A stretch of DNA of 64,000 nucleotides, taken from the NCBI RefSeq assembly GCF_900105685.1, contig NZ_LT629781.1, positions 1,178,001 through 1,242,000 on the forward strand, in the 5' to 3' direction. How positions within the stretch are numbered: the stretch's first letter is position 1; every line of letters starts with the position of its first letter. This DNA comes from Verrucomicrobium sp. GAS474 (GTDB lineage Bacteria > Verrucomicrobiota > Verrucomicrobiia > Methylacidiphilales > GAS474). The notes beneath the pieces were generated by a model. The model saw nothing but the letters and a program-made list of their open reading frames with translations, was not told where the DNA came from and searched no databases. The position numbers were made by a program, and so were the translations under genes. Below are positions 1 to 17,554 of this stretch, one piece after another.

Positions 1-457
1 GATCGCGGAGCAAACGTTGCTCTGTTACGACGGCAATCGCGCCGGGGACATCCCCCAACCGGAAATGGACGCCGGCAAGCTCTCGCCTTGCCCACATGCA
101 TTCCGGTTCCCTCTTCAGACGATCCCGATACAAATCCTCAATTGCGCACAGGGATCGAACGCCGCGATAATGGACGCTCAGATGCTCGTAGAGATAGGCC
201 AACTCGACCTCTCCGAGCAATCCTTTGAAGTTTTTTTCGATTTTCTTTAGCTGCCCCTTCGCCCGCTTCAAGGCTCCCATCTCGACAAGTTTCAGGAAAA
301 TGCCCTTCGCATGTCCGTAATTTCTGGGAAAAAAGAGGAAAGCGTGGCTTTTCATGGCCACTAGCGCTTCATCCTGGCTCTCGTAGAGAGATTCGTAAAT
401 CCAGCGGCGCATCCGCTTCAGGACCGGAATGTAAAGAGGTGGTAAGGGGATGCGCAT
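1..457 (-). CDS. Hypothetical protein, C-terminally cut by the window edge
   Basis: An open frame runs leftward from an ATG at 457 to the window edge without a stop (about 152 codons). The protein begins MRIPLPPLYIPVLKR and is rich in basic and aromatic residues, with helix-like segments such as FLKLVEMGALKRAKGQLKKI and a later stretch AYLYEHLSVHYRG. The amphipathic helical texture could fit a TPR-like repeat protein, but no family is recognised. There is no signal peptide. The frame stays open a little upstream of the ATG (to a TAA about 80 bases further), and a TTG lies four codons before it, so the start is likely but not certain. It is divergent from the heptose-type operon at 610 and has the same moderate GC, so it may belong to the same surface-glycan block. 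Confidence 0.6.
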   Translation of the reverse strand, partial: MRIPLPPLYIPVLKRMRRWIYESLYESQDEALVAMKSHAFLFFPRNYGHAKGIFLKLVEMGALKRAKGQLKKIEKNFKGLLGEVELAYLYEHLSVHYRGVRSLCAIEDLYRDRLKREPECMWARRELAGVHFRLGDVPGAIAVVTEQRLLRD

Positions 458-609
458 GAAGCTAGGCAAGAGCCGGGTAAATCTGTATTTCACCGGGATC
501 GTTTTTATTGACGATTCCGAAAAACAGTCTTTACCTGCCACCCTCAAAATTGAAATAGTTCAGTTTTTTTGTTGTTTAAAGGATTTTAGACATATAGCCA
601 TGTAGACGG
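458..609. promoter_or_regulatory. AT-rich divergent intergenic region
   Basis: These 152 bases separate the leftward partial gene from the rightward gmhA operon and are much richer in A/T than either gene, with T-runs near 564-570. A TTGAAA at 550-555 could be a -35 element for the rightward operon, but no convincing -10 box follows at 17 bases. The region most likely holds both promoters. No operator-like palindrome stands out. Confidence 0.4.
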
Positions 610-1200
610 ATGTCAGACAATACCTCATTTCTCGGCCCCCTTTCTTCCTATGGAGCCCGTTTGAGCGTCGCGCTGGGGGCGTTCGATTGGGAGCCTGTCT
701 CTCAAATGGCCTCCGATTTTCATGCTGCATGGCAGGAGGATCGCCAGATTTTCATCTGTGGCAATGGCGGCAGCGCGGCCAATGCCGTCCATTGGGGAAA
801 CGATTTCCTCTATCCTATCGCCAAAAAGGGGACGGCCCGCGGCATCCGCATTCATTCCCTCAACGGTAATGAAGCCGTCACCACCTGCCTGGCCAACGAC
901 ATCGGCTACGATCAAATTTTCTCCCATCAGCTGGCAACGTTCGCCCGCCGGGGAGATCTTCTCGTGACCCTTTCCGGGAGCGGCAATTCCTCCAATATCC
1001 TCGCCGTCCTCGATTCTGCCAAATCCTTGGGTCTCAAAAGCTACGCCATCGTCGGGTTCGACGGGGGCAAGGCGAAGGCCTTGGCCGATCTTCCCATCCA
1101 CATCGCGGTTCATGACATGCAGATAGCTGAAGACTTTCAGATGATCGTTTGCCACGCTCTCGTCCAATCCCTTCTCGCACACCCCGTTCCTTCTTTATGA
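610..1200 (+). CDS. gmhA: Phosphoheptose isomerase (sedoheptulose-7-phosphate isomerase, SIS domain)
   Basis: This 196-residue protein has the single SIS domain and length of GmhA, the cytoplasmic enzyme that converts sedoheptulose 7-phosphate into glycero-manno-heptose 7-phosphate, the first committed step of nucleotide-activated heptose synthesis. The phosphosugar-binding motif ICGNGGSAANAVHW lies near residues 48-61 and a second SIS motif, TLSGSGNSSNI, near 118-128. Both are typical of the family. It is the first gene of a tight operon, and its TGA overlaps the ATG of the next gene. The other genes (epimerases and a HldE-like kinase/nucleotidyltransferase) support a heptose role. Activity on another ketose phosphate cannot be excluded. 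Confidence 0.85.
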   Translation: MSDNTSFLGPLSSYGARLSVALGAFDWEPVSQMASDFHAAWQEDRQIFICGNGGSAANAVHWGNDFLYPIAKKGTARGIRIHSLNGNEAVTTCLANDIGYDQIFSHQLATFARRGDLLVTLSGSGNSSNILAVLDSAKSLGLKSYAIVGFDGGKAKALADLPIHIAVHDMQIAEDFQMIVCHALVQSLLAHPVPSL

Positions 1201-2198
1201 CCCCCCCTCCCGTCGTCGTCATCGGCAGCAACTCGATTTCCGGCGCCAGTTTTGTCGATTACCTTCTGAAAAAGGGCGAGTCCGTCATCGGTATGAGCCG
1301 TTCCCCCGAGCCCGTCGAGGCGCTCCTTCCTTACAAGATGTCGGGCCGTGCCGTTTCGGAAGCGTTCCGTTTCCTCCAGCTCGACCTCAACCACGATGTT
1401 GACCGGATCGCCGCCGAAATCAAAGCCGTCGAGGCTGCCTATGTGGTGAACTTCGCCGCGCAAAGCATGGTGGCCGAAAGCTGGCTTCATCCCGACCATT
1501 GGTACCAGACCAATGTTGTCGCGAACGTTCGACTGCACGAGAAATTGCGGCGTTTCGATTTCCTCAAGAAATACGTCCATATCTCGACTCCTGAAGTCTA
1601 CGGCTCCTGCAGCGGCAACGTGACGGAGGATGCCCCCTTCAATCCAAGCACGCCTTACGCCGCCTCCCGCGCCGCATGCGACCTGCACCTGCAGACCTTT
1701 TTCAAGAACTACAGATTCCCCGTCGTTTACACTCGCGCCGCAAACGTTTACGGTCCTGGCCAACAGCTCTACCGCATCATCCCCCGCACGATGCTCTTCA
1801 TCCGCCTCGGGCGGAAGTTGCAACTCCACGGCGGCGGACACTCGGTACGCTCCTTCATCCATCTGCGCGACGTCTCCGAAGGGACCTACCGGGTCCTGGC
1901 AGACGGCATTCCCGGCCAGTCCTATCACCTTTCCACCAAACGCTTCATCTCCATCCGCGACCTCGTCGCCCTCATTTGCCAAAGAATGGGGACGACGTTC
2001 GAGGAGGTCGTCGAAGTCGTCGGCGACCGCCCCGGCAAAGATGCCGCCTACCTTCTCGACGCCACGCGCGCCCGCACCGAACTGGGCTGGCAAGAGCAGG
2101 TCGACCTGGAGCCCGGGATCGACGAGATGGTCGCCTGGGTTGATCGTTATCTTCCTGCGCTGCGCGATCAGCCGTCGAATTACATTCACAAACCCTAG
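1197..2198 (+). CDS. NAD(P)-dependent sugar epimerase/dehydratase (SDR family, GDP-mannose 4,6-dehydratase-like)
   Basis: An extended short-chain dehydrogenase of 333 residues. The nucleotide-binding motif is GSNSISGASFV near residues 9-19. STPEVYG occupies the position of the Thr/Asp(Ser)-Glu motif of sugar-nucleotide 4,6-dehydratases. AAQSMVAESW and the late segment SVRSFIHLRDV are also dehydratase-like. The ATG at 1197 overlaps the gmhA stop (ATGA), suggesting coupled translation; an upstream in-frame start at 1149 would lie inside gmhA and is unlikely. The catalytic Tyr-x-x-x-Lys appears as YAASR (Tyr154...Arg158), so the usual lysine is replaced. By context it would act on an NDP-heptose, for example as a 4,6-dehydratase on the 6-deoxyheptose route, but the substrate is inferred. 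Confidence 0.75.
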   Translation: MTPPPVVVIGSNSISGASFVDYLLKKGESVIGMSRSPEPVEALLPYKMSGRAVSEAFRFLQLDLNHDVDRIAAEIKAVEAAYVVNFAAQSMVAESWLHPDHWYQTNVVANVRLHEKLRRFDFLKKYVHISTPEVYGSCSGNVTEDAPFNPSTPYAASRAACDLHLQTFFKNYRFPVVYTRAANVYGPGQQLYRIIPRTMLFIRLGRKLQLHGGGHSVRSFIHLRDVSEGTYRVLADGIPGQSYHLSTKRFISIRDLVALICQRMGTTFEEVVEVVGDRPGKDAAYLLDATRARTELGWQEQVDLEPGIDEMVAWVDRYLPALRDQPSNYIHKP

Positions 2199-2215: not shown

Positions 2216-3760
2216 GTGACCTCCACCCAAGCCAAAATTCTCCCCTACGAGACGGCTTCCGACGCTTTCGACGCCCTCCGCCTCCAAGGCAAGAGAATCG
2301 TGCAGTGCCATGGGACCTTCGACCTGATTCATCCGGGCCATATCTATCATCTGGAAGAAGCCCGTGAACTGGGAGATATTCTCGTCGTCACCGTGACGGC
2401 CGAACATTTCGTGAACAAGGGACCCGGGCGGCCCTTCTTTAACGATCTCCTTCGTGGCAAAAGTCTCGCGGCCCTCGCATGCGTCGATTATGTTGTCCTT
2501 ATTCCCCATCCCACGGCGCTCAAGGCCATCGAGTGCGTGAAGCCGGCGATTTACTGCAAGGGGGTCGAATATGCAAACCCCGACAACGATGTCACCGGCA
2601 ATATCCACGAAGATCTCCGTACCGTCGAAGCCTACGGTGGTGAAGTGCGTTACCTCGGATCGATCGTTTTCAGTTCCACCAAACTCATTAACGCCCACTT
2701 TGCCCCCGTCCCGCAGGGTGTGCGGGAATATTGCGCCGGATTGGCCAAAGAGTTCAGTCCCGATCGCTTTCGCGAAATCGTCGACTCCTTCTCCCGGCTA
2801 AAGGTCCTGATCGTGGGGGATGTGATCTACGACCGCTACTCCTACGTCAAAGTCCAGGGCCTCACCTCCAAGAACCGGATTCTTTCCTCCCGCCTCCTCT
2901 CCGAGGAAACCCAGACCGGAGGCGCCCTGGCCGTCTACCGGCATATCCGCCAATTTACCGAAAAAGTCGATCTTCTCAGCCTCGTCGGTACGGAGCCATG
3001 GATTAATGCGAATTTGGCGCTTTACGTCGACAAGGCGAATGACCGCCTCATTCGCACTCCTTCCTTTCAGACCATCGTGAAGCAACGTTTTGTTGAAACT
3101 GCAGGCGAAGGAAAAGAACTGAACAAGCTTTTCAGCGTCAACTTCATCGATGCCGATCCTCCTCAGGCCAAAGTGCAAGAAGAGATCCTCCGATCCCTCG
3201 AGGCGATCATCGGCGATTACGACCTCGTCGTTGTCACGGATTTCGGCCACGGACTCATGCAGGACGAAATGCGACGTCTCGTCGAGGCGAAGGCACCCTA
3301 TCTCGCCCTCAATTGCCAAACAAACAGCAACAACCACGGGTTCAACATCATCTCCAATCAGTATCGGCGAGCCGACTGCTTCTCCCTCGACGATCAGGAA
3401 CTCATGCTCTCCGTGGCCCGGAAGCACGTGAATCATTCCGTCGAAATCAAAGCCTTGCTCGCCCGATTTGATTCCGCACAGGCCTGGTTGACGCGAGGCG
3501 GTGTCGAGACGATCGGCGTGGCGAAGGATCGCAGCCCTTGTACCCTCCTGCCTTTGGAATCGAGGATCGTCGATACCGTGGGTGCGGGCGACGCCTTTTT
3601 CGCCGTGGCCGCGCTTGGAGCCAAGCTCGAGCTCCCCATCGCTTTCACCACCTTTCTGGGTCAGCTCGCGGGAGCCCAGGCCGTCCGCATTGTCGGCAAT
3701 ACCGAACCCATTTCAAAGCAAGGGCTCCTCAAGAGCGGGATGTCCCTTCTCAATCTTTAA
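2216..3760 (+). CDS. Bifunctional sugar nucleotidyltransferase / PfkB-type sugar kinase, HldE-like with reversed domain order
   Basis: This 514-residue protein joins the two activities of heptose activation. Residues ~28-165 are a cytidylyltransferase-fold domain with GTFDLIHPGH (the HxGH signature at 39-42) and the later TAEHFVNKGPGRP. Residues ~190-514 are a PfkB/ribokinase-fold kinase with GDVIYDRYSYV near its start and DTVGAGDAFFA near residue 455, which carries the catalytic Asp. In Escherichia coli HldE the kinase comes first and the nucleotidyltransferase second; here the order is reversed. The start is a GTG at 2216, 17 bases after the previous stop. The expected role is phosphorylation of a heptose phosphate at C1 and transfer of a nucleotide to it; whether ADP, GDP or CDP is used cannot be read. 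Confidence 0.8.
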   Translation: MTSTQAKILPYETASDAFDALRLQGKRIVQCHGTFDLIHPGHIYHLEEARELGDILVVTVTAEHFVNKGPGRPFFNDLLRGKSLAALACVDYVVLIPHPTALKAIECVKPAIYCKGVEYANPDNDVTGNIHEDLRTVEAYGGEVRYLGSIVFSSTKLINAHFAPVPQGVREYCAGLAKEFSPDRFREIVDSFSRLKVLIVGDVIYDRYSYVKVQGLTSKNRILSSRLLSEETQTGGALAVYRHIRQFTEKVDLLSLVGTEPWINANLALYVDKANDRLIRTPSFQTIVKQRFVETAGEGKELNKLFSVNFIDADPPQAKVQEEILRSLEAIIGDYDLVVVTDFGHGLMQDEMRRLVEAKAPYLALNCQTNSNNHGFNIISNQYRRADCFSLDDQELMLSVARKHVNHSVEIKALLARFDSAQAWLTRGGVETIGVAKDRSPCTLLPLESRIVDTVGAGDAFFAVAALGAKLELPIAFTTFLGQLAGAQAVRIVGNTEPISKQGLLKSGMSLLNL

Positions 3761-3785: not shown

Positions 3786-4730
3786 ATGAAAATTCTCCTG
3801 ACCGGAGGGTGCGGCTACATCGGCACCCCCCTTGCGCAAAGCCTCCTCAAGGCAGGCCACGACATCACTGTTTACGATATCCAATGGTTCGGCAACCATC
3901 TCGAGCCTCACCCGAAATTGACGGTCATCCAGGGTGACATCCGCGATATCGACCGTGTTCCCATGGATGGTATCGAAAGCATCCTTCATCTGGCCAACGT
4001 CGCCAACGATCCCTGCAGCGATCTCAATTCTAAACTCAATTGGGAGGTCAACGCCCTCGCCACGATGCAGCTTGTCGAAAAGGCGATCGCCCACGGCGTC
4101 CGGCAGTTCGTCTTTGCCAGCTCCGGTAGCGTCTACGGCGTGAAAGAAGAGCCGGAAGTGACGGAAGACCTCTCCCTTGTCCCGATCTCCGACTATAACA
4201 AGACCAAGATGGTCAGCGAGCGCGTGCTCCTGAGCTACGCCGATAAAATCCTCGTCAATATCGTCCGTCCCGCAACCGTTTGTGGCTATTCCCCGCGGAT
4301 GCGCCTCGATGTCGCGGTGAACATGCTTACAATGCAGGCTCTCGCCAGCGGAAAGATCACTGTTTTGGGTGGCGATCAGACCCGACCCAACATCCACATC
4401 CGGGATATGGTTCGCGTCTACCACCATTTCCTTGCCAACGGTGCGAAGGCCCCCGGCATCTACAATGCCGGGTTCGAGAACATCTCCATTCTCGATATTG
4501 CCAACCGGGTAAAGGATCGTGTCCCGTGTGAAATCGTGGTGAGCGAATCGAATGATCCTCGATCCTACCGTCTCAGCTCGAAAAAGCTTCTCTCCACGGG
4601 ATTCGAGCCGAAGTATACCGTCGCCGACGGCATCGCCGAGGTTATCGCCGCTTTCCGCGACGGAAACCTCCGGATGGAAGACCGCTACTTCAACATCAAG
4701 ACGATGAAGAAGCTGACCAACCTTTCCTGA
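3786..4730 (+). CDS. NAD-dependent epimerase/dehydratase (UDP-glucose 4-epimerase-like)
   Basis: A 314-residue extended SDR protein starting at the ATG at 3786. The same frame is open upstream, but only through the end of the previous gene. It has the Rossmann motif TGGCGYIG (residues 6-13), the substrate motif SSGSVYG, and an intact catalytic YNKTK with Tyr137 and Lys141. That contrasts with the Arg-substituted paralogue at 1197. It likely epimerises or reduces the NDP-sugar made by the preceding genes. It lies 25 bases after the kinase/nucleotidyltransferase and 11 bases before the E1 alpha gene, so the operon is continuous. The exact substrate is not determinable. Confidence 0.8.
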   Translation: MKILLTGGCGYIGTPLAQSLLKAGHDITVYDIQWFGNHLEPHPKLTVIQGDIRDIDRVPMDGIESILHLANVANDPCSDLNSKLNWEVNALATMQLVEKAIAHGVRQFVFASSGSVYGVKEEPEVTEDLSLVPISDYNKTKMVSERVLLSYADKILVNIVRPATVCGYSPRMRLDVAVNMLTMQALASGKITVLGGDQTRPNIHIRDMVRVYHHFLANGAKAPGIYNAGFENISILDIANRVKDRVPCEIVVSESNDPRSYRLSSKKLLSTGFEPKYTVADGIAEVIAAFRDGNLRMEDRYFNIKTMKKLTNLS

Positions 4731-4741
4731 TCTTCCGTCCC

Positions 4742-5716
4742 ATGACCCCGACATCGCTGGCCAAGGACCTCTATCGCCGGATGGTGCGCATCCGGCGTGT
4801 CGAGGAAACCATCGCCGAGCTCTATGCGGAACAGCAGATGCGCTGCCCCGTCCATCTGAGCATCGGGCAGGAATCCGTCGCCGTGGCCGCCGGTGCGGCG
4901 GTGCGGCAAACGGATTATGCGATGAGCGGCCATCGCTCGCACGCCCACTATCTAGCCAAGGGCGGCAACCTGCGGGCCATGTTCGCGGAAATGTACGGTC
5001 GCGAGACCGGCTGTTGCTCCGGCCGCGGCGGCTCCATGCATTTGATCGATCTCGACGCCGGTTTCCTGGGTGCGGTCCCTATCGTTGGCAGCACGATCCC
5101 GATCGCCGTCGGCACCGCCTTCGCCATCCAGCGCCGGAAAGAGGACCGCGTCACTCTCACCTTTTTCGGAGAGGGGGCGACTGAGGAGGGTGTCTTCCAC
5201 GAGAGCATGAATTTCGCCTCGCTTCACAAGCTCCCCATCGTCTTCGTCTGCGAGAACAACCTCTACTCCGTCTACTCGCCCATGCGCGTGAGGCAGCCCG
5301 CCCACCGCGAGGTTTTTCACCAGGCCCAAGGCCACGGTGTCTCCGCCCTTCAGGCCGACGGGAACGATCTCCTCGGTGCCCACGCCCTCATGACCGAGGC
5401 TGTCGCCAAAGCCCGCGCGGGCCAGGGTCCCATCTTCATCGAATTCCTCACCTACCGCTGGCGGGAACATTGCGGCCCCGGTTACGACAACCACATCGGA
5501 TACCGCACCGAGGCCGAATACCTCGCCTGGAAAGAGAAATGCCCTGTCGCCCGGATGGAACGCGAATACGGCACCGCCATCCTTCTCACCACGGAAGAGG
5601 AAGCAGCCCTTCGGAATGAGATCGAAGATGCCGTCGCCTTCGCCAAAGCCAGCCCCTTCCCGAACCCCGAGACCATCGCGCGGCATCTTTACGCCGCTCC
5701 CATACCCTTCCACTAG
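4742..5716 (+). CDS. Thiamine-diphosphate-dependent dehydrogenase E1 component, alpha subunit
   Basis: A 324-residue homologue of the alpha subunit of pyruvate/acetoin/branched-chain 2-oxoacid dehydrogenases. The segment LYRRMVRIRRVEETIAELY opens the family domain. MSGHRSHAHYLAKGG and the GCCSGRGGSMH segment (near residue 93) are typical. The ThDP/Mg motif runs from GEGATEEG (about residue 143) to CENN about 25 residues later. The partner beta subunit follows after one base. There is no lipoyl-domain E2 or E3 gene in the window, and the genes sit inside a sugar-nucleotide operon. They may therefore perform a ThDP-dependent carbon-carbon bond reaction on a sugar intermediate rather than feed central metabolism; that is inference. 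Confidence 0.85.
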   Translation: MTPTSLAKDLYRRMVRIRRVEETIAELYAEQQMRCPVHLSIGQESVAVAAGAAVRQTDYAMSGHRSHAHYLAKGGNLRAMFAEMYGRETGCCSGRGGSMHLIDLDAGFLGAVPIVGSTIPIAVGTAFAIQRRKEDRVTLTFFGEGATEEGVFHESMNFASLHKLPIVFVCENNLYSVYSPMRVRQPAHREVFHQAQGHGVSALQADGNDLLGAHALMTEAVAKARAGQGPIFIEFLTYRWREHCGPGYDNHIGYRTEAEYLAWKEKCPVARMEREYGTAILLTTEEEAALRNEIEDAVAFAKASPFPNPETIARHLYAAPIPFH

Positions 5717-5717
5717 C

Positions 5718-6776
5718 ATGAGCCGCATCCTTTCCTACGCCCAGGCGCTTCTAGAGGGGACTGACCTGGCCCTGGCCGCCGATCCCAACGTCTACATCGT
5801 CGGCCTCGGGGTTCCCGATCCTAAGGGCCTTTTCGGAACCACGCTCGGCCTTGTCGAAAAATACGGCGAGTCCCGAGTCATGGATATGCCCTGCGCCGAA
5901 AATGCCATGACGGGAATCGCCATCGGCAGCGCCCTCTCCGGATTGCGCCCGATCCTCACCCATCAGCGCGTCGATTTCGCCACGCTGACGATGGAGCAGC
6001 TCGCGAACCAGGCGGCCAAATGGCACTACATGTTCGGTGGGCGCAAGAGCATCCCGCTCGTGGTGCGCATGATCCTGGGCCGGGGCTGGGGCCAGGGCCC
6101 ACAGCACTCCCAGAGCCTGCAGGCATGGTTTGCCCACATTCCGGGGCTCCGGGTCATCATGCCCACGACGCCCCACGACGCCAAGGGAATGCTGATTTCG
6201 GCTCTCGAAGACAACAATCCCGTCGTCTACCTGGAACATCGATGGCTCCACGCCGTCACCGGCCCCGTTCCCGAAGGCCTTTACCGCGTCCCCATCGGTC
6301 CCGTCCGCATCGCCCGGGAGGGAAAGGATGTCACTCTCGTCGCCACGAGCTACATGGTACTCGAAGCCCTTCGCTCCGCCGATCTCCTTGCCGCCCGTGG
6401 CATCGAAGCCGAGGTCCTCGACCTCCGCGCCATCGCGCCCCTCGATCGGCAAGGCATCCTCGCCTCCGTCAGGAAAACAGGCCGCCTCGTCGTCGCCGAT
6501 ACCGGAACTCACTCCTTCGGTATCGGTGCCGAAATCATCTCCAGTCTCGTGGAGGAAGGGTTGGAACTCTTCAAAGCCAAGCCCGCACGCGTTTCCTCCC
6601 CCGATTTTCCGTCGCCGACGAGTCCTGCCCTTTCCAACCACTACTATCCTCGAACCCCCCATATCGTCGCCGCCGTCCTGGCGCAGTTCGGCCAGCAGGC
6701 CGATTCTGCCTCCTTCGCCATCCCCGAAGGCACCTTTCTCGACGTCCCCGACAAAGCCTTCCAAGGCCCGTTCTAG
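5718..6776 (+). CDS. Thiamine-diphosphate-dependent dehydrogenase E1 component, beta subunit (transketolase-like)
   Basis: A 352-residue E1 beta protein beginning at the ATG at 5718, one base after the alpha-subunit stop. It has the pyrimidine-binding domain with the conserved Glu in MPCAENAMTG (about residues 56-65), the GRGWGQGPQHSQ segment typical of E1 beta, and the C-terminal transketolase domain (LEVLDLRAIAPLD-like segment near residue 240). The last ~30 residues (SFAIPEGTFLDVPDKAFQGPF region) extend past the usual fold and may be specific to this subgroup. With the alpha subunit it should form an alpha2beta2 decarboxylase or carboligase. It is the last gene of the operon and converges on the acylation genes. 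Confidence 0.85.
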   Translation: MSRILSYAQALLEGTDLALAADPNVYIVGLGVPDPKGLFGTTLGLVEKYGESRVMDMPCAENAMTGIAIGSALSGLRPILTHQRVDFATLTMEQLANQAAKWHYMFGGRKSIPLVVRMILGRGWGQGPQHSQSLQAWFAHIPGLRVIMPTTPHDAKGMLISALEDNNPVVYLEHRWLHAVTGPVPEGLYRVPIGPVRIAREGKDVTLVATSYMVLEALRSADLLAARGIEAEVLDLRAIAPLDRQGILASVRKTGRLVVADTGTHSFGIGAEIISSLVEEGLELFKAKPARVSSPDFPSPTSPALSNHYYPRTPHIVAAVLAQFGQQADSASFAIPEGTFLDVPDKAFQGPF

Positions 6777-6827: not shown

Positions 6828-7865
6828 TCATTTCGCCTTTTTACGAACGGGAAATACGAGGGGTGAATCGAGCTTTTCCGCCTGCATCTGGAGAAAAAGC
6901 CTTTCCGTCACGATATCCCGGGAGGCGGAATCAAGATGGGTTCCTCCATCCCAATAGCCCATTCCATTTCCATTCAGAAAAATGAAGGGATGACCCACGG
7001 CATGGGCTTCTAAGGCTGCTTCCTGCGAATTGAATCCCAGAAATGGGATCAACGTCAGAAAGGGGGTCAAATGATTTTGCCTGATTACCGGCTCCAAGAA
7101 AGCGGCGTCTACCAATGAATTCGGAATATTTGGAATCGGCGGCGCAGCAGTGGAGTAGATCATCCCCGATGTTGGAGACCAAAAAGCAGAAGTGTCTCCT
7201 GTTTCCAAATTGCGAAACCAATACGCGTCATCGAGAAACTGCATGGGGTAGAAAAGAATATCCGACCTCGGATTTTGGGCATAGTGCTGGGCAATGGAAA
7301 TATGTGGAACGAAACGATAGAAGAGCCATTTTTCCATGTAGCCAGACCAGACATTGCCCGCCAGCACGGTGCTTTTCAGAGCATTCCCTGATCTAACCAC
7401 CTCAGCCCAAGGACTCATTCCATCGCCTCGAATGCCATAAAGGTCGAACAGGATTTTCTGGTTTTCGATCTGATTGTGCTGAATGACCTGCGAAATGAAT
7501 GCCCATCGCTCAGCATGGCCGAGGCCGGCGTTATAAACTCGGAAAGGACGTCCCAAGGCAGCCGACATCCGTCGGGACAGAATTTCAGCCGACAGCCCCA
7601 TGGCGACATGGGAAGTGCCAAGCAAGAGAAGGTCGGCGTCTCTCATTCGCTTCCCCGTTCCGAAAAGACCGTAGAGTAAGAGGCAATGGGCTAATTCACC
7701 GTCGTTTGCGGAACTCAGATAGGTACTGGAGGAAATCGGGAGGAAGGGAGGCGGTGCGGGAAGATGTCTTTCCTTCGGATTCCACCAGGAATGAAGCAGG
7801 AGGGAAGCGCCGATCAGCGTCGCAAGCAGCCCCACCCAAAACGAACGAATGGATCGGGTAAGCAT
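6828..7865 (-). CDS. SGNH-hydrolase-fold membrane-anchored protein, partner of the MBOAT acyltransferase (AlgJ/AlgX/DltD-like role)
   Basis: A 345-residue protein with one N-terminal membrane segment (SFWVGLLATLIGASLLLHSW). The SGNH block I-like motif LLLLGTSHVAMG lies near residues 80-91 and the block V-like DGGTHLD near residue 310, giving a plausible Ser/Asp/His set. The start ATG at 7865 forms TGATG with the stop of the upstream MBOAT gene. A longer reading frame upstream exists only because it crosses the MBOAT gene in another frame. In alginate, cellulose and teichoic-acid systems an MBOAT protein passes an acyl group to an SGNH partner that transfers it to the exported polymer. The same division of labour is inferred here. 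Sequence identity to any one of those partners is not claimed. Confidence 0.7.
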   Translation of the reverse strand: MLTRSIRSFWVGLLATLIGASLLLHSWWNPKERHLPAPPPFLPISSSTYLSSANDGELAHCLLLYGLFGTGKRMRDADLLLLGTSHVAMGLSAEILSRRMSAALGRPFRVYNAGLGHAERWAFISQVIQHNQIENQKILFDLYGIRGDGMSPWAEVVRSGNALKSTVLAGNVWSGYMEKWLFYRFVPHISIAQHYAQNPRSDILFYPMQFLDDAYWFRNLETGDTSAFWSPTSGMIYSTAAPPIPNIPNSLVDAAFLEPVIRQNHLTPFLTLIPFLGFNSQEAALEAHAVGHPFIFLNGNGMGYWDGGTHLDSASRDIVTERLFLQMQAEKLDSPLVFPVRKKAK

Positions 7866-9322
7866 CAGAATCGAAAGTAAATGAATGTCTTGGCCGGCGA
7901 GACGATCACGATATTCAGCAGGAGCACCAGCCCGGTGAGAACGCCCAGGGATAGTCCGAGATGCCGTCGGGGGACGAGCCGCAGGAACGACGGGGCGAAC
8001 TGATGTGCCAGGACCGGCAGCGAAGCCAATAAGGGGAACGCGATGTTCAAGTGCACCAAGTACCAATGGTGGCCGGAATAATGGACCATGCCTTTGAGGA
8101 AATGAAATGAGGTTGAAAGATCGGGGCACCGGAAGAAAATCCAGGCGATCAGAATCCATATCTGGGCGACGATCCATCCGGGGAAGATCATCAAGCTCTC
8201 GTGCGATCGGCCCGAACTTGCATCAGCAGTCCGAAGGCGCGTCCAAGCGAGGCTGAATCCTCCTGGAATTTTCCAGGCCAGCAATCCCCAGCTCCAGCGC
8301 CCTGCAAGGCGTTCCGCCGCCAATCCTATTCCGTGCAGAAAACCCCAGATAATAAAGCCCCATCCCGCTCCATGCCACAATCCTCCCAATATCATGGTGA
8401 TCAGGACGTTTAAGGCGCTGCGTATTTTAGAGGTGCGATTGCCGCCCAAGGGAATATAGAGATAATCCCGCAGCCATCGGGACAAGGTGATGTGCCACCG
8501 CTGCCAGAACTCCCGAAGGGTTCCAGCCAGCATCGGCGCCCGGAAGTTGGGGGGCAGGCGATAACCCAGCAGGCGAGCCATGCCAAGCGCCATCAGGGAG
8601 TATCCGGCGAAATCCCCGTAGATCTGGCAGTAATAAAGAAAAGGAAGGAGCCAGTAATCGACGGTCGACAGGGGCGAGATTCCTTCCCAGATAGGATCGA
8701 TCCCCTGCGCGATATTGTTGGCGGCAACGGCCTTAAGGAAAAACCCGATCACCATATAATGGAGGCCCATCGCCAGATTGCCCCGGATGCGGCGGATCTT
8801 CCCGATCTGGGGCATCAGCTGCCATGCCCGCACGATGGGCCCCGCGATGACATGGGGGAAAAAGCTGAGGTAGAAAAGGTATTCCCGAAAGGAGGCCAGC
8901 TTCACCCGCCCGGCCTGAAGATCGACCAGGTAGCTGATGAGATGGAAGGTATAGAAGGAGATCGCGAGCGGAATTCCCAACGGAAATTTAGGAAAGGTCA
9001 GCCCCGAAATGCTTCCAAGGTTATCGCTGAAAAAATCAGCATATTTGAATAGTGCCAGAACCAGGAGATCGAAGCCGATCAGAGCTCCCAACCACTTTTT
9101 GGAGGCGCTCCGGCTTGATTTGGACAAAGCAATAGCGCCGCCGAAGTTGACCAAAAGAATGATCAGGAAAAGGATCAGATCGTAATAACCCCATGTAGCG
9201 ATGACAAAGAGGCTGAATCCGATCAGGAGCCATTCTTTGAGGGCCGGCCAAGGACGCAGCAACATGGTCCCGAGCCAGAGCGCGAGAAAAAGAAGGACAA
9301 AAAAGACCTCGGTGTAAACCAT
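7865..9322 (-). CDS. MBOAT-family O-acyltransferase (AlgI-like)
   Basis: A multi-pass membrane protein of about 485 residues with the AlgI/MBOAT hallmarks. FWQRWHITLSRWLRDYLYIPLGG runs from about residue 273 (family His at ~277), and GGLWHGAGWGF carries the invariant catalytic His near residue 317. FFPHVIAGPIVR and YCQIYGDFAGYS are also characteristic. Long hydrophobic segments run throughout. The ATG at 9322 is preferred (GGAAG just upstream on this strand); an in-frame TTG at 9331 is the alternative. It should move an acyl group, commonly acetyl, across the membrane for O-acylation of a cell-surface or secreted glycan. It is translationally coupled to the SGNH-like gene downstream. Confidence 0.85.
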   Translation of the reverse strand: MVYTEVFFVLLFLALWLGTMLLRPWPALKEWLLIGFSLFVIATWGYYDLILFLIILLVNFGGAIALSKSSRSASKKWLGALIGFDLLVLALFKYADFFSDNLGSISGLTFPKFPLGIPLAISFYTFHLISYLVDLQAGRVKLASFREYLFYLSFFPHVIAGPIVRAWQLMPQIGKIRRIRGNLAMGLHYMVIGFFLKAVAANNIAQGIDPIWEGISPLSTVDYWLLPFLYYCQIYGDFAGYSLMALGMARLLGYRLPPNFRAPMLAGTLREFWQRWHITLSRWLRDYLYIPLGGNRTSKIRSALNVLITMILGGLWHGAGWGFIIWGFLHGIGLAAERLAGRWSWGLLAWKIPGGFSLAWTRLRTADASSGRSHESLMIFPGWIVAQIWILIAWIFFRCPDLSTSFHFLKGMVHYSGHHWYLVHLNIAFPLLASLPVLAHQFAPSFLRLVPRRHLGLSLGVLTGLVLLLNIVIVSPAKTFIYFRF

Positions 9323-9610
9323 AACTTCCAATAAGGAAAAAGACGCACCTGTATGCGGGCCCGGTTACGGATCGGTCAAGGAAATAAGAGAGGATAGCGG
9401 ATGTTCATGCCTCTTGCGGCGGTATCAAATAGGGTGCCAATAGCCGCAGCATGCCGACATATTACCGCAGTCGGCCAACATCGAATCCGTTTACTCTCAC
9501 GGCCCGCAGGGTGGGGGGCGAAGTGGAGGATTTTATTTTAACCTTCTTTCAAAAACTTTTCTCGGTGGATTTCCCGCGGCGGCGCGGCCTAGGCTGGGGG
9601 TTTCACGCTC
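9323..9610. other. Divergent intergenic region and composition boundary
   Basis: These 288 bases lie between the leftward MBOAT operon and the rightward ribokinase gene and hold no convincing gene. The frame starting at 9451 is out of phase with ribokinase and becomes Gly/Arg-rich nonsense. Base composition shifts here from the moderate GC of the glycan block to the high GC of the rest of the window. Promoters for both directions are expected. The run ATTTTATTTTAACC near 9531-9544 is the most AT-rich part. Confidence 0.4.
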
Positions 9611-10626: not shown

Positions 10627-13600
10627 ATGAAGGGAAGCGCGATACAAGAGGCCCCGCGGGGACGGCTGGCTGGTATCTTTTTGTTGGGGATCATGGTGGG
10701 CCTCAGCGTCACCCCGTGGGAGCTACGGGCGAACCCCACCGGGGGCGACGTCGTGAGCGGCAGCGCGAACATCAGCAGCAGCGGCAACACCTTGACCGTC
10801 GTCAACAGCAACGGAGCCGTCATCAACTGGCAAGACTTCAGCATCGGGGCTGGGGAGTTGACCAAATTCATCCAGAGCGACGCCAACAGCACCGTCCTCA
10901 ACCGCGTCGTCGGGACCAACCTTTCCCAGATCTACGGCACGTTGAGTTCCAACGGCAAAGTCTTCCTCATCAACCCCAACGGCGTCATGATCGGCGCCAC
11001 CGGCATCGTCAACACCGCCGGGTTCATGGCGAGCACCCTCGACATCAACAACGCCGACTTCATCGCCAACAACGGGAGCGGCGCGATGCACTTCGTCGGC
11101 AATAGCACCGCCGCCATCACCAACCTCGGCACCATCAACGCCGTCGGCGGAGATGTCTACCTCATCGCCAAACACATCGACAACCAGGGCACCGTCAACG
11201 CCAGCGAAGTCGCGGGCAAAGGCGGCCTCGTCGGCGTCTACGCAACCGACGAACTTTATCTGACCACCGGCGTCCCCGAAGGCGGCCTCGTCCGCGTCGG
11301 GAGCGGCAGCCTCAGCAGCGGAGCCGGCACCGGCATCAACAACAGCGGCCTCATCAACGCCGTCCAGGCCGACCTCAAAGCCACCGGCAACCTCTACAGC
11401 CTCGCCATCAACAACACCGGCGTCGTCCGCGCCACCGGAGCCACGGCCAAGAACGGCGTCATCCACCTCAGCGCCGCGGGAGGCACCCTCAGCAGCAGCG
11501 GCACCCTCGCCGCCAAGAACGCCGACGGCAGCGGCGGCACCATCAAAGTCCAGAGCGGATCGGGCGGCACCACCCTCGTCAACGGCACCGTCGACGCCAG
11601 CGCCACCAGCGGCAAAGGCGGCCTCGTCGAACTGAGCGGCGACTACGTCGCCCTCTACGGCACCGGGAGCGTCACCGCGAGCGGCCCTGCGGGCGGCGGC
11701 GTCATCCACATCGGCGGCAGCCCCCACGGGACCGGCGACAGCACCGTCTACAACGCCATCAGCACCTACGTCGGGAGCGACACCACGATCAGCGCCGACG
11801 CCCTCGTCCTTGGCGACGGCGGCCAGGTCACCGTCTGGGCCAACGACACCACCCGCTTCTACGGGAACATCACCGCGAAGGGTGCGGGCGGCGGCAGCGG
11901 CGGCTGGGTCGAGACCAGCGGCGAGATCGATCTGCAGGCCCTCGGCACGGTCGACACCGGCGGCGGCACGTGGCTCCTCGACCCGAGCATCGTCTACATC
12001 GGCGACGCGGGCACCTTCACCATCAGCCTCGGCCCGCTGAGCTTCGACTTCAGCCTGAGCGGCGGCGGCATCGGCAACATCATCGGCAGCGCCTCGCTCA
12101 AGTCGGCCCTCCAGAGCAACAGCGTCGAGATCATCTCCGGTTCCGATATCCAGGTCGGCGGGGCCAGCGCCGGGAGTTCCTTCATGACGGGGATCACGGG
12201 GGGCCACACCCTCACCCTGACGGCGGCCAACGGCAGCATCATCGTCAACGGCGGATCGGGCGGGGTTTCCTGGACCGGCAATTTCAACCTCGCGATGACC
12301 GCCGGGGGAGGCGTGACCGTCACGTCGACCACGCTCCAGACGGGGACCGGCTCGATCAACGTCACGGCGGGGGCGGCAAGCTCCCTCACCGGGCTCCTGG
12401 TCTCGGGGGCCAACTTCTCCGCCTCGACCACCTCCGGCGGTCTCACCGTCGGCGGCCCCATCACCGAGACGGGGACGATCAACCTGGCCGGCGTCGGCGG
12501 GGCGACCGGTCTTTCGGTCGGCAGCCCCCTTTCCGCGGGCCAGGGGATCACGTTGAGCGGCACGGCCGATTCGGCTTCCGCGGTGACGTATGGGGTCAAC
12601 TTGGGCAGCTTCGCCCTGACCTCCTCCGGCAGCATCACGATCAACGGCACCGGCGGGAACACGATCAGCGGCGTCTACAACAGTTACGGCGTCTATGGAT
12701 CGAGCGCGACGCTTTCGGCCTCCGGGAACATCACCGTCAACGGCACCGGCGGCACGGCGGGCAGCACGGGGTACGGGGTCTCCCTGGTGAGCGTCGGGGC
12801 GACGGCGAGCGGCACGGGCGGCATCGTCCTTTCGGGAACGGGCGCGGTCTCGACGACCACCTACGGCGTCTCGCTGTCCGTCTTCAACGCGAAGGCCGAT
12901 TCGGGCAGCATCACGATCACGGGCAATGCGGCGGTGGGGACCAGCTCCTACGGCGTCTCCCTCTCGACTTCGACGGCGGCGACGACCTCGGGCAACATCA
13001 CGATCAACGGCACGGCCGGCACCGCCTCGACCGGCAATTCCTACGGCCTCTCCGTCTCCAATTCGACGGTGACGACGGTTTCGGGAAGCGGTTCCCTCAC
13101 CGGCACGGCCGGTTCGGCCTCGTCGGGCAGTTCCTACGGGATCTATTCGTCCTCGGGGAAATTCACGGCGACGGGAACCGGCTCGATGAACCTTCAGGGG
13201 ACGGCCTCCACCGCCGGAGGCTCTTCGGTCGGCATCGTGCTGACCGGGGCGAGCCTGGCCCAGACGGCCGGCGGCGCGCTGGGGCTTTCCGGCGCGGGCC
13301 TCGGCTACGGCCTCTACCTGGCGGGGGGCTCGCAGGTCCGGCAGACCGGCACCGGCAGCCTCACCCTCTCCGGCAGCGGCACCAGCACCGGCAGCAGCGT
13401 CGGCCTCTACGCGAACACCCTCGCCCTCAGCAACTCGGGCGGCTCGACCTCGATCACCGGCTACAGCGCGGCGGCCAGCAGCCCGAACGGGGTGAACGTC
13501 ACCGCCTCGACGATCGCCCTCGGCTCCGGCGCGGTGACGATCACGGCCGACGGGGCGCTCTCCCTCGCGTCGAACACCTCCTTCACGGGAACCGGCATCC

Positions 13601-16600
13601 TGACGCTGAGGCAGTCGGGCGGCGGCGACATCAATCTCGGCTCCTCCGGCGCGGCGTCGACCTCGACGGTCTACGTCGCCAGCGCCAGCCTCGCCTCGGT
13701 CTACGGCGCGGGCTTCACCGGCCTCAATGTCCTCTCGACCTCGGGGAACATCGCCTACACCGATGCGGGGATCGCCCTCGCGAACGCGACGTTCATCTCG
13801 ACGAGCGGCACCGTCACCCTCACGGCGACCGCGGGCAATATCACGCTGACGAACGACACCCTCACCGCCGGGGGCAGCCTTTCCCTCGTCGCCACGGGGG
13901 CCATCAACCTCTCCGCGGGCGATACCCTCACCGGAAGCGCCGTCAACCTCAACGGGACGACGCTGAACAACAGCGGGGCGACGATCGTCGTCACGAGCGG
14001 CTCCTTCGCGACCTCCTACGGCGGCGTCTCCTTCTCCGGGACGAGTTCCGACGCGACGAACACGGCGACGGCGATCGGCAACGGGACCCTCTCCTCCGGC
14101 CTCGGGACGAACGCGGGCGCGGTGACGATCACCGCCACCGACATCTACTGGACCGGCTCCTTCGTCTTCTCCTCCGCGGGGAGCCGCGACGTGACGTTCA
14201 ACGCGACGGGCGTGATCAAACTCGGCATCGACAGCGGCGGGACGACCGTCGGCCTGACCCTCGACAACACAACGGCCTCCCCGGCCTCCCTGACCTTCAA
14301 CGCGGGCGGCGCGATCACCATCGGCAACCTCGCCGTGAACGGGAACGGCGGGACGAGCGCGGTGAACCTCGCCTTCACCTCGACCGGCGGCGGGATCGCG
14401 ATGAGCGGCTCGACCCTTGCCGGATCGGGCTCGGTCTCGATGACGGCGAATGCGGGCGGCGTCTCGATCTCGGGCTCGACGATCGCGGCGGCGACGGGGG
14501 TGACGATCCACGGCGGGACGCCGCCCGGCTTCGACAGCGTCGGCGTCTCGATCTCCTCCTCGACGATCACCACGCTCGCCGGGGCGGTCTCGATCGCCGG
14601 GACGGCGGCGACCCAGGGCGGCCACAGCGCCACCGCCGTCTCGATCTCCGCAAGCACGATCGCGGCCTCCGGCACCGGGACGGTGACCGTGACCGGCGAC
14701 GGGACCAACTCCTACGGGCAGGACAACGACTACGGCGTGAAGATCGCCACGTCGACGCTCCGCACCGCCGACGGCGCGCTCCACGTCAACGGCCTCTCGG
14801 GCGCGGGCGGCAGCTCCGGCGCGTGGGGCCTCTCGATCTCGGCCTCGACGGTCCAGGCGACCGGCGGCGGGCTGATCACGCTCGAGGGGACGGGCGGCGG
14901 CTCGTCGGTCAACTCCTACGGCGTCCAGATCGCCTCGACCTCGGCGGTTTCGGCGGCGGGGGGCGGGGTCACGATCTCGGGGACGGGCGGCTCGGTTTCG
15001 GGCGGCACCTCCTACGGCGTCTCGCTCGGCGGCTCGACGGTCTCGGCATCGGGCGGGACGATCGCGGTCTCCGGTTACGGCTCGACCTCGACGGGCAGCG
15101 ATTCCTACGGCGTCTTCGTCGGCTCCTCCACCGTGCAGGCGACCGGGAGTGCCGCGGTCAAAATCGTCGGCACCGCCTCGGCGGCCGGCTACGATTCCGT
15201 CGGCATCGGCCTGAACGACGGGACGGCGAAGACGATCACCTCGGCCTCCGGCGCGATCACGCTCTCCGGCACCGGGAGCACGGCCTCCCATTCCTCCGTC
15301 GGCTTGACGAGCCAGCAGATGACGGTCTCGAGCACGTCGGGCGGGACGATCTCGATCTCCGGCGCGGGCGGCAGCGGCGGCGCGGCCTCCTACGGCCTCG
15401 GCTTCAATAGCGATTCCGTTCAGGGCACCGGGAGCAACATCGTCCTCTCCGGCACCGGCGACGCGGCGACCACCGGCGCCTCCTGGGGCATTGATTTCAA
15501 CGGCATCGCCGTCGGGACCACCGGGACGGGCGCGATCACGATCACCGGGACGGGCGGTTCGGCGGCGAGCGGCACCTCCTACGGCGTCGCGACGAACAGC
15601 GGTGTGGCCAACACGTTCTCCGCCGCCTCCGGCGCGATCGAGGTCTTCGGCACGGGCGGCGCGGGCAACGGCTCCTACGGCATCTACATCGACAGCGCCA
15701 ACACGATGAACTTCCAGACCACCGGCGGGGCGCTCGCGCTCTCCGGCACCGGCGGCACGGCGGCCGGGGGCGGCTCGATGGGCATCGGCGTGCGGGGCGG
15801 CAAGTTCCAGACGAGCGGCACCGGCTCGATCACGCTCTTCGGCACGGGCGACGTCGTCACTGGGACCTCCGCCTATTCGAGCGGTGTCGTCTTCATCGAC
15901 AGCGGGGTGAACCCCAGCTCCCTCGCCGCGCTCGGCTCGGGCGGCATCGAGATCACCGGCGTGGGCGGCCAGTCGGCGGGTTCGAGCCAGGGCGTCAGTT
16001 CCGACATCACGAATTTCTCGGTCGCGGGCGGCCAGCTCTCGATCTCCGGGACCGGCGGCGCGTCGGTGAACGGCTCCACGGGCGTCTGGTTCCTCCACAA
16101 CGCGATCACCTCGACGGGGGCGGGGAACATCGTCATCCGCGGGACGGCGGGGACGGCGACCGTCGGCGATTCGACCGGCTTCTGGATGGGGGGCGGCCCC
16201 ATGACGGCGGGCTCCGGCTCGATCACGTTCTCGGGCGCCGGCGCGGCGGCGGGGGGCAATTCGACCGGCGTCCTCATCGCGCAATATCCCTACGACCAGA
16301 ACCCGATCTACGTCGGCTCGGGCGGCCTCTCGATCTCCGGGACCGGCGGTGCCGCTTCGGGGGGGAATTCCGAGGGAGTCCATCTCTACGGCACCGGTTC
16401 GATCCAGTCGAGCGCCTCGGCGGCCTATGCGCTGGCGATCACCGGCGTCTCCAGCACCGCCTCGGGCTCGTCGAGCGCCATCGTCTCGATCATGGCGGTC
16501 ACCGACAACGGCGGGACGATGACCCTCTCCGGCACGGGCAACATCACGATGTCGAGCCTCGCCGTCACCGCCGTCTCGTTGAGCGGCACCCAGGGCGTCG

Positions 16601-17526
16601 TCGATTTGACCGGATCGGGCGCGACCGCCCTCGGCGGGACCGTCCAGGGCGATCTGACGGGCCACTTCTCCGGGAACATCACCCAGACGAGCGCCCTCCT
16701 GGTCACCGGGAACGTGACCCTCGCGGCGACGGCCGGGAGCGTCGTCCTCACCAACACGGGCAACCTCCTCGGGGGCACCGTCTCCCTGGCGGCATCGACC
16801 GGCGGCCAGATCCAGCTGGTCTACCGGAGCACCGGCTCCCAGGTGGCCGGGGTCAACGCCGTCAGCTCCAACGGGACGACGACGCTGAACACCACCTCGA
16901 GCGCCAACTCGATCAGCGTCGACGGAAGCGTCACGACGCTCACGATCTCGGGGAGTCTCGGCACCGCCTCGACCACCGTCTCCACCGGCGATTCCTCCGT
17001 GACGATCGCCTCGGGCTTCGGGGCCTCCGTCAGCGCCAGCACGAGCACCGGGGCCGACACGAGCTCGAGCGCCAGCTCGGCGGCGACCTCGGCCGCCATC
17101 CCCCAGGTCATCACGAAGACCGATCCGACCCTCCAGTCCTCCAATGCCGCCAACTCGTCGACGAACGCCACCAGCAGCACCCTCATCAAGACCGACGCGA
17201 CCGCGCCCACCGATCCCGTCCCGTCCCAGAGCGATCCCGATCAGGCGAGCACGAGCGCGGCGGGAAGCTCCTCCTCCGGCGCCGGCAGCGGCAAATCGAC
17301 CGCCTCGAACCGGGACAAGAAGGGCGCGACGCTCGGCAACAACGCCGGGCGGGACGGCGGCGCCGGCCAGGGCGGCGGCAAGGAAAGCGTCATCACGGCG
17401 GGGAGCTCCTCGATCATCAGCGCGGCCGGGATCGGCGCGGCGAACCTCCCGCCCCCGCCGCAGCTCATCCGCGCCCTCTCGTGGAACGTTCGGAACGACC
17501 TGAACCAGGCCATCTCCGGCCATTAG
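10627..17526 (+). CDS. Giant filamentous-haemagglutinin-type secreted protein (two-partner secretion TpsA-like)
   Basis: A 2299-residue exoprotein. After a signal peptide (LAGIFLLGIMVGLSVTPW, likely cut after ELRA) comes the TPS/haemagglutination domain at residues ~35-180. It has the typical VVNSNGAVINWQDFSIG, VLNRVVGTNLSQIYGTLSSN and NPNGVMIG (near residue 116). This domain directs secretion through a TpsB pore in known systems. The rest is low-complexity Gly/Ser/Thr/Ala sequence expected to form a long beta-helix, with SYGV-type repeats at about residues 650-900 and 1290-1940. The last ~200 residues are Ser/Thr- and Lys/Gly-rich and end in a short LSWNVRNDLNQAISGH tail. No TpsB gene is in the window. 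Likely roles are adhesion or a surface fibre. Confidence 0.85.
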   Translation: MKGSAIQEAPRGRLAGIFLLGIMVGLSVTPWELRANPTGGDVVSGSANISSSGNTLTVVNSNGAVINWQDFSIGAGELTKFIQSDANSTVLNRVVGTNLSQIYGTLSSNGKVFLINPNGVMIGATGIVNTAGFMASTLDINNADFIANNGSGAMHFVGNSTAAITNLGTINAVGGDVYLIAKHIDNQGTVNASEVAGKGGLVGVYATDELYLTTGVPEGGLVRVGSGSLSSGAGTGINNSGLINAVQADLKATGNLYSLAINNTGVVRATGATAKNGVIHLSAAGGTLSSSGTLAAKNADGSGGTIKVQSGSGGTTLVNGTVDASATSGKGGLVELSGDYVALYGTGSVTASGPAGGGVIHIGGSPHGTGDSTVYNAISTYVGSDTTISADALVLGDGGQVTVWANDTTRFYGNITAKGAGGGSGGWVETSGEIDLQALGTVDTGGGTWLLDPSIVYIGDAGTFTISLGPLSFDFSLSGGGIGNIIGSASLKSALQSNSVEIISGSDIQVGGASAGSSFMTGITGGHTLTLTAANGSIIVNGGSGGVSWTGNFNLAMTAGGGVTVTSTTLQTGTGSINVTAGAASSLTGLLVSGANFSASTTSGGLTVGGPITETGTINLAGVGGATGLSVGSPLSAGQGITLSGTADSASAVTYGVNLGSFALTSSGSITINGTGGNTISGVYNSYGVYGSSATLSASGNITVNGTGGTAGSTGYGVSLVSVGATASGTGGIVLSGTGAVSTTTYGVSLSVFNAKADSGSITITGNAAVGTSSYGVSLSTSTAATTSGNITINGTAGTASTGNSYGLSVSNSTVTTVSGSGSLTGTAGSASSGSSYGIYSSSGKFTATGTGSMNLQGTASTAGGSSVGIVLTGASLAQTAGGALGLSGAGLGYGLYLAGGSQVRQTGTGSLTLSGSGTSTGSSVGLYANTLALSNSGGSTSITGYSAAASSPNGVNVTASTIALGSGAVTITADGALSLASNTSFTGTGILTLRQSGGGDINLGSSGAASTSTVYVASASLASVYGAGFTGLNVLSTSGNIAYTDAGIALANATFISTSGTVTLTATAGNITLTNDTLTAGGSLSLVATGAINLSAGDTLTGSAVNLNGTTLNNSGATIVVTSGSFATSYGGVSFSGTSSDATNTATAIGNGTLSSGLGTNAGAVTITATDIYWTGSFVFSSAGSRDVTFNATGVIKLGIDSGGTTVGLTLDNTTASPASLTFNAGGAITIGNLAVNGNGGTSAVNLAFTSTGGGIAMSGSTLAGSGSVSMTANAGGVSISGSTIAAATGVTIHGGTPPGFDSVGVSISSSTITTLAGAVSIAGTAATQGGHSATAVSISASTIAASGTGTVTVTGDGTNSYGQDNDYGVKIATSTLRTADGALHVNGLSGAGGSSGAWGLSISASTVQATGGGLITLEGTGGGSSVNSYGVQIASTSAVSAAGGGVTISGTGGSVSGGTSYGVSLGGSTVSASGGTIAVSGYGSTSTGSDSYGVFVGSSTVQATGSAAVKIVGTASAAGYDSVGIGLNDGTAKTITSASGAITLSGTGSTASHSSVGLTSQQMTVSSTSGGTISISGAGGSGGAASYGLGFNSDSVQGTGSNIVLSGTGDAATTGASWGIDFNGIAVGTTGTGAITITGTGGSAASGTSYGVATNSGVANTFSAASGAIEVFGTGGAGNGSYGIYIDSANTMNFQTTGGALALSGTGGTAAGGGSMGIGVRGGKFQTSGTGSITLFGTGDVVTGTSAYSSGVVFIDSGVNPSSLAALGSGGIEITGVGGQSAGSSQGVSSDITNFSVAGGQLSISGTGGASVNGSTGVWFLHNAITSTGAGNIVIRGTAGTATVGDSTGFWMGGGPMTAGSGSITFSGAGAAAGGNSTGVLIAQYPYDQNPIYVGSGGLSISGTGGAASGGNSEGVHLYGTGSIQSSASAAYALAITGVSSTASGSSSAIVSIMAVTDNGGTMTLSGTGNITMSSLAVTAVSLSGTQGVVDLTGSGATALGGTVQGDLTGHFSGNITQTSALLVTGNVTLAATAGSVVLTNTGNLLGGTVSLAASTGGQIQLVYRSTGSQVAGVNAVSSNGTTTLNTTSSANSISVDGSVTTLTISGSLGTASTTVSTGDSSVTIASGFGASVSASTSTGADTSSSASSAATSAAIPQVITKTDPTLQSSNAANSSTNATSSTLIKTDATAPTDPVPSQSDPDQASTSAAGSSSSGAGSGKSTASNRDKKGATLGNNAGRDGGAGQGGGKESVITAGSSSIISAAGIGAANLPPPPQLIRALSWNVRNDLNQAISGH
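14509..16440 (+). repeat. Degenerate tandem coding repeats in the adhesin
   Basis: Within residues ~1294-1938 of the adhesin a unit of roughly 35-45 residues recurs: a strand like GTISISGTGG, a Ser/Gly spacer, then SYGV or a near variant (SVGI, SYGI, STGV), then a ST-rich strand. A similar array occupies about 12630-13330. The copies are diverged in DNA, so this looks like an old beta-helix rung repeat rather than a recent expansion. Confidence 0.65.
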
Positions 17527-17554
17527 TCCGCGCCTGCCCGACGTGGTGCGGCCG

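Follow-up and report, generated by a model that had tools for sequence, protein, structure and literature searches.

Gene content of the operon and its glycan locus

The stretch of DNA analysed here (the window, 64,000 nucleotides) covers positions 1178001-1242000 of the single-contig genome of Verrucomicrobium sp. GAS474 (3,763,444 bases). Close to its start lies a plus-strand operon of six genes, encoding a SIS isomerase, a 4,6-dehydratase-like SDR, a nucleotidyltransferase-kinase fusion, a second SDR and the alpha and beta subunits of an E1-type ThDP enzyme (E1a and E1b). The features of the locus are listed below in window coordinates, or in coordinates of the extended locus L159, whose position 10001 is position 1 of the window.

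L159:7024-8832, minus strand: second ThDP enzyme, acetolactate-synthase superfamily, 602 aa, 1.2-3.0 kb upstream of the window start
1..547, minus strand: 5' part of a TIGR04372-family glycosyltransferase gene that extends past the window start (L159:8904-10547)
610..1200, plus strand: SIS-domain sugar-phosphate isomerase, GmhA-like
1197..2198, plus strand: extended SDR, RmlB/GMD-like, motif STPEVYG; its ATG overlaps the stop of the SIS gene
2216..3760, plus strand: HldE-like nucleotidyltransferase (N-terminal, HPGH) fused to a PfkB kinase (C-terminal, GAGD)
3786..4730, plus strand: extended SDR, GalE-like epimerase or reductase, SSGSVYG
4742..5716, plus strand: E1 alpha, ThDP pyrophosphate-binding half, 324 aa (Pfam E1_dh, 3.4e-64)
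5718..6776, plus strand: E1 beta, pyrimidine-binding half, 352 aa (Transket_pyr and Transketolase_C)
6828-9331, minus strand: MBOAT O-acyltransferase gene and a neighbour with no Pfam match, convergent to the operon

The original prediction had recognized an E1 alpha/beta pair at 4742-6776 inside a sugar-nucleotide operon, and the Pfam domains confirm that the pair is real. The intergenic gaps it gave are also right, namely 11 nt ahead of E1a (4731-4741) and 1 nt between E1a and E1b (5717). The genes said to precede the pair, however, are not two epimerases: a single SDR (3786-4730) stands directly before E1a, and before it come the nucleotidyltransferase-PfkB fusion, the dehydratase-like SDR and the SIS gene. 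The convergent MBOAT gene and its neighbour mark the end of the operon; the MBOAT gene itself possibly serves in glycan O-acetylation.

None of the six operon proteins reaches an NCBIfam equivalog cut-off, and the labels NDP-heptose and 4-keto sugar used below therefore denote similarity below model thresholds. The operon has in common with the GmhA/HldE (ADP-heptose) pathway the SIS isomerase and the HldE-like kinase and nucleotidyltransferase domains, but the two HldE halves are swapped in order (nucleotidyltransferase at residues 19-158 of the fusion, kinase at 190-500), an HldD-type epimerase is absent at equivalog level, and the ADP-heptose models are not reached (gmhA, 109.8 of 209.45 bits for the SIS protein; HldE, 132.8 of 521 bits; heptose_epim, 55 of 274.6 bits). 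The product of the SDR at 1197-2198 is predicted from its sequence to be an NDP-4-keto sugar. We take the Glu of its STPEVYG motif to be that of the 4,6-dehydratases, and of the 35 members of cluster 2 (87 members in total) matched by the search pattern, 24 have STPEVYG or SSPEVYG.

The window cuts through a larger glycan locus (L159), which extends approximately 10 kb upstream of the window start and includes an ABC exporter, a methyltransferase, a Zn-dependent dehydrogenase, two TIGR04372 glycosyltransferases, a GT2 enzyme, an FkbM methyltransferase and the 602-aa ThDP enzyme. The exporter ATPase is nearest to the teichoic-acid/galactan type; the permease was named by eye, and the methyltransferase and GT2 were identified from the annotated locus clusters that they match. 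Beyond the operon, a 2299-aa ORF at 10627-17526 appears by eye to encode a filamentous-haemagglutinin-type adhesin, and the 2350-aa open frame on the opposite strand (10723-17775) is probably a composition artefact.

Residues and signature of the E1 pair

Both subunits have E1 folds with the ThDP residues present, as in the E1 of 2-oxo-acid dehydrogenases. E61 and H130 of E1b, which align with residues of solved E1 beta structures, are conserved, and we take them to be the ThDP Glu and the catalytic His of E1 beta, respectively. Against the PDH E1 models, E1a scores 299.2 of 393.85 and 218.8 of 411.35 bits and E1b 287 of 321 and 274.4 of 454 bits, all below the cut-offs, and against the transketolase models E1a and E1b score 27.5 and 56.1 bits, respectively, where the cut-off is 488. 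The folds, the subunit split and the ThDP residues are thus those of PDH and acetoin dehydrogenase E1, but the window pair stands without E2 and E3, carries an extra tail and is altered at W124, R84 and R175 of the beta subunit and in the EHCGPG loop of the alpha subunit. The loop and the tail map as follows.

5450..5506, plus strand: family-specific E1 alpha loop TYRWREHCGPGYDNHIGYR, replacing the PDH-type TYRY.GHS loop
6741..6773, plus strand: conserved E1 beta C-terminal tail with D342, P344, F348 and G350-P351-F352

Both elements characterize the family. The E1 alpha loop, written as R(W)xEHxGP, is found in 74 of 83 glycan loci, with near variants in eight of the other nine, and in none of 18 controls. 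The beta subunit ends in FxGPF in 76 of 84 loci and in YxGPF in two more, a tail that none of the 12 PDH-type E1 beta compared possesses; the remaining six are cut at contig ends (L090, L093 and L106), broken or short (L050), end in FAGPY (L108) or have no motif (L110). Two further E1 beta motifs, GxGWG and HxRx(D/E)F, each occur in 81 of 84 loci and in one of 16 controls. H82 and R84 lie just N-terminal to the residue that aligns with Phe85 of the Bacillus stearothermophilus enzyme, and W124 lies just before the catalytic His; on the functional roles that we assume for Phe85 and this His, the family-specific residues are probably placed around the active site. In an AlphaFold model of E1 beta alone, the mean pLDDT is 93.1 and residues 350-352 fall below 50, and the tail may depend on the partner subunit.

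E1 pairs with no tail are seen inside the clade (L110) and near its base (L011 and L115), and these three possibly show how the tail arose. Apparent natural fusions of E1a and E1b in L053, L073 and L078 were discarded, as the long ORFs consist of E1b and an out-of-frame upstream extension.

Distribution, neighbours and E2/E3 genes of the family

A scan of genome contigs retrieved at least 571 relatives, of which the best 80 (best-segment identity 48-72%) were used; with L107-L110 they make up the 84 glycan-type loci. These best 80 of at least 571 come from other genomes and carry the labels of approximately 22 phyla, two archaeal, and since many relatives are MAGs, single phylum assignments, the archaeal ones above all, may be binning errors. 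The spread is patchy, with matches in 12 of the 387 genomes from the window's phylum (E<=1e-120) and in 22 of the 398 from a second one, to which L040 belongs (E<=1e-130). An IQ-TREE tree of 115 rows, rooted at the midpoint and with a bootstrap short of full convergence, separates a group of 86 rows that includes the window from 29 PDH/Aco-type rows with a split support of 100/100. The viral contigs and phages searched hold no close relative, and the phage matches listed, at 26-34% identity, are acetoin-type, transketolase-like or lack annotation.

The statement of the original prediction that the window holds no E2 or E3 gene is borne out by whole-genome searches and by tblastn, in which five E2 and two E3 queries gave no match either within the window or over the 10 kb ahead of it. 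The genome has a complete PDH operon (E1a/E1b/E2 at 1.57 Mb); its E2 genes lie at 1571.9 and 1902.1 kb and its two lipoamide dehydrogenases above cut-off at 786.3 and 1903.2 kb, so that, with the window at 1178.0-1242.0 kb, no E2/E3 gene of the genome is closer than 387 kb to the operon. An E2/E3 operon beside the pair in related genomes had been named as the observation that would overturn the prediction, and tblastn detected neither gene in the 1.42 Mb of the 84 glycan-type loci. Of 21 control loci taken around PDH/Aco-type E1, 18 have E2 and six have E3, four of the 21 having supplied a query. In a second count, E2 was present in none of 80 glycan loci as against 15 of 18 controls, all 18 drawn from the window's own order, and five further verrucomicrobial loci likewise have neither E2 nor E3.

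The sugar genes, on the other hand, recur. Gene clusters over 86 loci comprise E1b in 84, E1a in 83, SDR2 in 60, EPI in 55 and NTK (nucleotidyltransferase-kinase) in 51, followed by DegT aminotransferases (39), methyltransferases (37), HAD phosphatases (22), Zn-dehydrogenases (21) and transaldolases (6). Using tblastn on the best 80 loci, of which 39 have flanks of approximately 10 kb on both sides, NTK was found in 54, EPI in 58, SDR in 56 and SIS in 35, compared to one, one, one and none of the 18 controls; within the 39 full-flank loci the numbers are 30, 27, 30 and 23, respectively. For example, a plasmid of Azospirillum oryzae (NZ_CP054615) carries in a row two SDR genes, the PfkB fusion, SIS, an SDR, E1a, E1b and two DegT genes. 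In the cultured soil strain KACC 14407 of this species, all six operon functions are encoded consecutively. The six-gene arrangement, which the original prediction had proposed to look for in other genomes, is thus found again in other phyla with E2 never nearby, and this recurrence points to more than a chance association of the E1 pair with sugar genes.

Relatives also occur among deoxysugar genes. Of 246 genomes from a single actinomycete genus, 27 have a match at E<=1e-100, and PF03559 (NDP-hexose 2,3-dehydratase) is present in 11 of the 21 of these that were checked. The best two matches, G438 and G497, are E1 pairs ending in FQGPF and FQGPY, share the tail and loop type of the window family and stand in deoxysugar clusters. 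PF03559 is approximately 1 kb distant from the pair in G438; in G497 it lies on the same contig at a distance of approximately 33 kb. The gene order in G438 is EryCIII-like glycosyltransferase, 2,3-dehydratase, E1a, E1b and RmlC-type epimerase, and an EF-G gene lies next to them, much as an EF-G gene (pau10) is described as adjoining pau11/pau12 in the paulomycin cluster (PMC4425429). E2 occurs in six of nine actinomycete regions and in neither of the two tail-bearing regions nor in L210. On plasmid pSGRIFU1 of Streptomyces griseofuscus (L108:20007-22053), an E1 pair with a FAGPY tail lies by genes for a condensation-domain protein, an ACP and SARP regulators.

Proposed sugar branching and alternative explanations

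Based on the above, we hypothesize that the E1 pair is an E2-independent carboligase that adds a pyruvate-derived two-carbon unit to an NDP-keto-sugar used for surface glycans, and we regard this as the probable function. The pair would act without E2 and E3, presumably as an alpha2beta2 ThDP enzyme, and would decarboxylate a 2-oxo acid, most likely pyruvate. The hydroxyethyl-ThDP carbanion would then attack a nucleotide-activated sugar at its keto group, the putative acceptor and site of the branch, and the product, a sugar carrying an acetyl branch of two carbons, would go into a cell-surface polysaccharide. The acceptor is plausibly supplied by the SIS isomerase and the nucleotidyltransferase-kinase, which would yield an NDP-heptose-like sugar, and by the dehydratase-like SDR, which would convert it to the 4-keto form. 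The branch ketone would be reduced by the Zn-dehydrogenase module in this genome and elsewhere transaminated by DegT enzymes, and glycosyl transfer and ABC export would be the last steps. Near the E1 genes of 80 loci, a DegT gene alone is found in 27, a reductase alone in 26, both in three and neither in 24 (Fisher p 1.2e-4, with the reductase clusters picked after the layouts had been seen and kinship uncorrected); such rare co-occurrence is the pattern expected from two alternative fates of the branch ketone.

Carboligation by E1-type pairs has precedents in antibiotic biosynthesis. In the accounts cited, disruption of pau11 abolishes paulomycins (PMC4425429), pairs of this type are proposed to add a pyruvate-derived acetyl branch (PMC4753412, PMC10338323), and KbDH-alpha/beta couples pyruvate with cyclic ketones in vitro (PMC12247030), while other pairs have been assigned by gene disruption or by proposal (PMC4425429, PMC4753412, PMC10338323, PMC12247030). 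The branches made by alphaKADH2 enzymes are described as C2 units that are afterwards reduced, methylated, oxidised or transaminated (PMC12247030). Like AviB1/AviB2 of avilamycin, Pau11/Pau12 of paulomycin, EvdU5/EvdS3 of everninomicin and KbDH-alpha/beta of kibdelomycin, as described there, the window pair is a two-gene E1 pair without E2/E3 that adjoins genes which, by similarity, make an NDP-keto-sugar, whereas its setting is a surface-glycan operon, accompanied by an ABC exporter and a heptose-type activation set, in a family labelled with approximately 22 phyla. We suggest that it works like these pairs, an analogy in which AviB, Pau and KbDH are compared by description. The carboligation to a branched sugar put forward by the original prediction fits the constant absence of E2/E3, the adjoining gene for a keto-sugar-forming dehydratase-like SDR, the relatives in deoxysugar clusters and the branching pairs as far as published in these accounts. 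Its view that this is an uncommon use of E1-type enzymes is half right, as such pairs are reported from approximately 120 antibiotic clusters (PMC12247030) and the related family occupies glycan loci of approximately 22 phyla. The 2025 review connects YerE-like enzymes with LPS and alphaKADH2 branching mainly with specialised natural products (PMC12247030), and in the literature searched E1 pairs were not described from surface-glycan loci.

Several other functions would place an E1 pair among sugar genes. As a dedicated transketolase, it would produce sedoheptulose 7-phosphate for isomerization by the SIS protein and activation to NDP-heptose by the nucleotidyltransferase-kinase. The GmhA-like SIS, the HldE-like fusion and the HAD phosphatases (22/86 loci) do hint at heptose, and transaldolase genes accompany the pair in 6/86 loci, but the match to the transketolase models is weak where that to the PDH E1 models is strong (299.2 and 287 bits), and both the DegT/reductase pattern and the tail-bearing pairs of deoxysugar clusters, which have neither SIS nor NTK, would be left unexplained, so that we consider a transketolase rather improbable. 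Loading of a carrier with a two-carbon acyl group, or formation of a free aldehyde, has been proposed in some antibiotic pathways, and an E1 pair that charges an ACP, CoA or another thiol in this way, or frees the aldehyde, could have its acyl group later decorate the sugar. The S. griseofuscus pair, with its condensation-domain and ACP neighbours, agrees with such a role and indicates that other acceptors may exist in the family; the larger annotated neighbour clusters of the glycan loci, however, include no carrier gene, and the nearest sugar-linked relatives stand among deoxysugar genes, and we view it as unlikely for the window pair.

An ordinary 2-oxo-acid dehydrogenase E1, located here by chance and served by remote PDH/OGDH E2 and E3, would account for the conserved ThDP machinery, and the genome does encode E2 and E3. 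We reject this as highly improbable given the absence of E2/E3 from all 84 loci, the recurrent sugar genes, the separate clade and the altered signature, which extends to the C-terminus of E1 beta, the E2-binding region in PDH. ThDP carboligations are reversible in principle, and the original prediction had offered a shortened sugar as an alternative product. Cleavage of a keto-sugar finds no support in the neighbouring genes, which are for activation and keto formation, and we know of no E1-type pair that cleaves or shortens keto-sugars in sugar biosynthesis; we think it hardly credible.

If the pair is indeed a carboligase, E1-type sugar branching would extend from antibiotic clusters to ordinary cell surfaces, and the lack of E2 together with the EHxG loop, GxGWG and the (F/Y)xGPF tail would tell carboligase-type E1 from the PDH E1, in place of the current annotation of such pairs as 'thiamine pyrophosphate-dependent dehydrogenase E1'. 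The signature would then predict which bacteria make new branched, possibly heptose-derived, surface sugars, and the family would offer new enzymes to make tertiary alcohols.

The second ThDP enzyme of the locus (L159:7024-8832) matches the acetolactate-synthase models with scores under their cut-offs, and the solved structure to which it is best related is 8rph (1.4e-94), reported to be JanthE, a YerE-like carboligase (PMC12188165). YerE, ErwE and JanthE have the same predicted job as the E1 pair, namely to introduce a C-branch into an NDP-keto-sugar destined for LPS or a surface glycan, but they are single-chain enzymes of the decarboxylase superfamily (ALS-type), and the E1 pair, which does not have their TPP_enzyme N/M/C architecture, belongs to another superfamily. 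The YerE/JanthE-like enzyme could by itself make a branch, and its presence in the E1 locus renders the assignment of each branch to either enzyme ambiguous. It also permits a bolder and decidedly speculative reading, in which E2-free E1 carboligases with the signature tail are a general surface-glycan branching module of bacteria and perhaps archaea, and in which two unrelated ThDP carboligases build at this locus, as at 15 of 80 related ones, a doubly branched sugar of nine or more carbons from an NDP-heptose; a class of doubly branched, higher-carbon surface sugars was not met in the literature searched. A YerE/ALS-like ThDP enzyme is present in 15 of the 80 related loci, and the gene clusters over 86 loci likewise place it in 15. 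The counterparts in the verrucomicrobial locus L028 are 74.5% (methyltransferase), 72.4% (dehydrogenase) and 66.9% (ThDP enzyme) identical to those of the window's locus.
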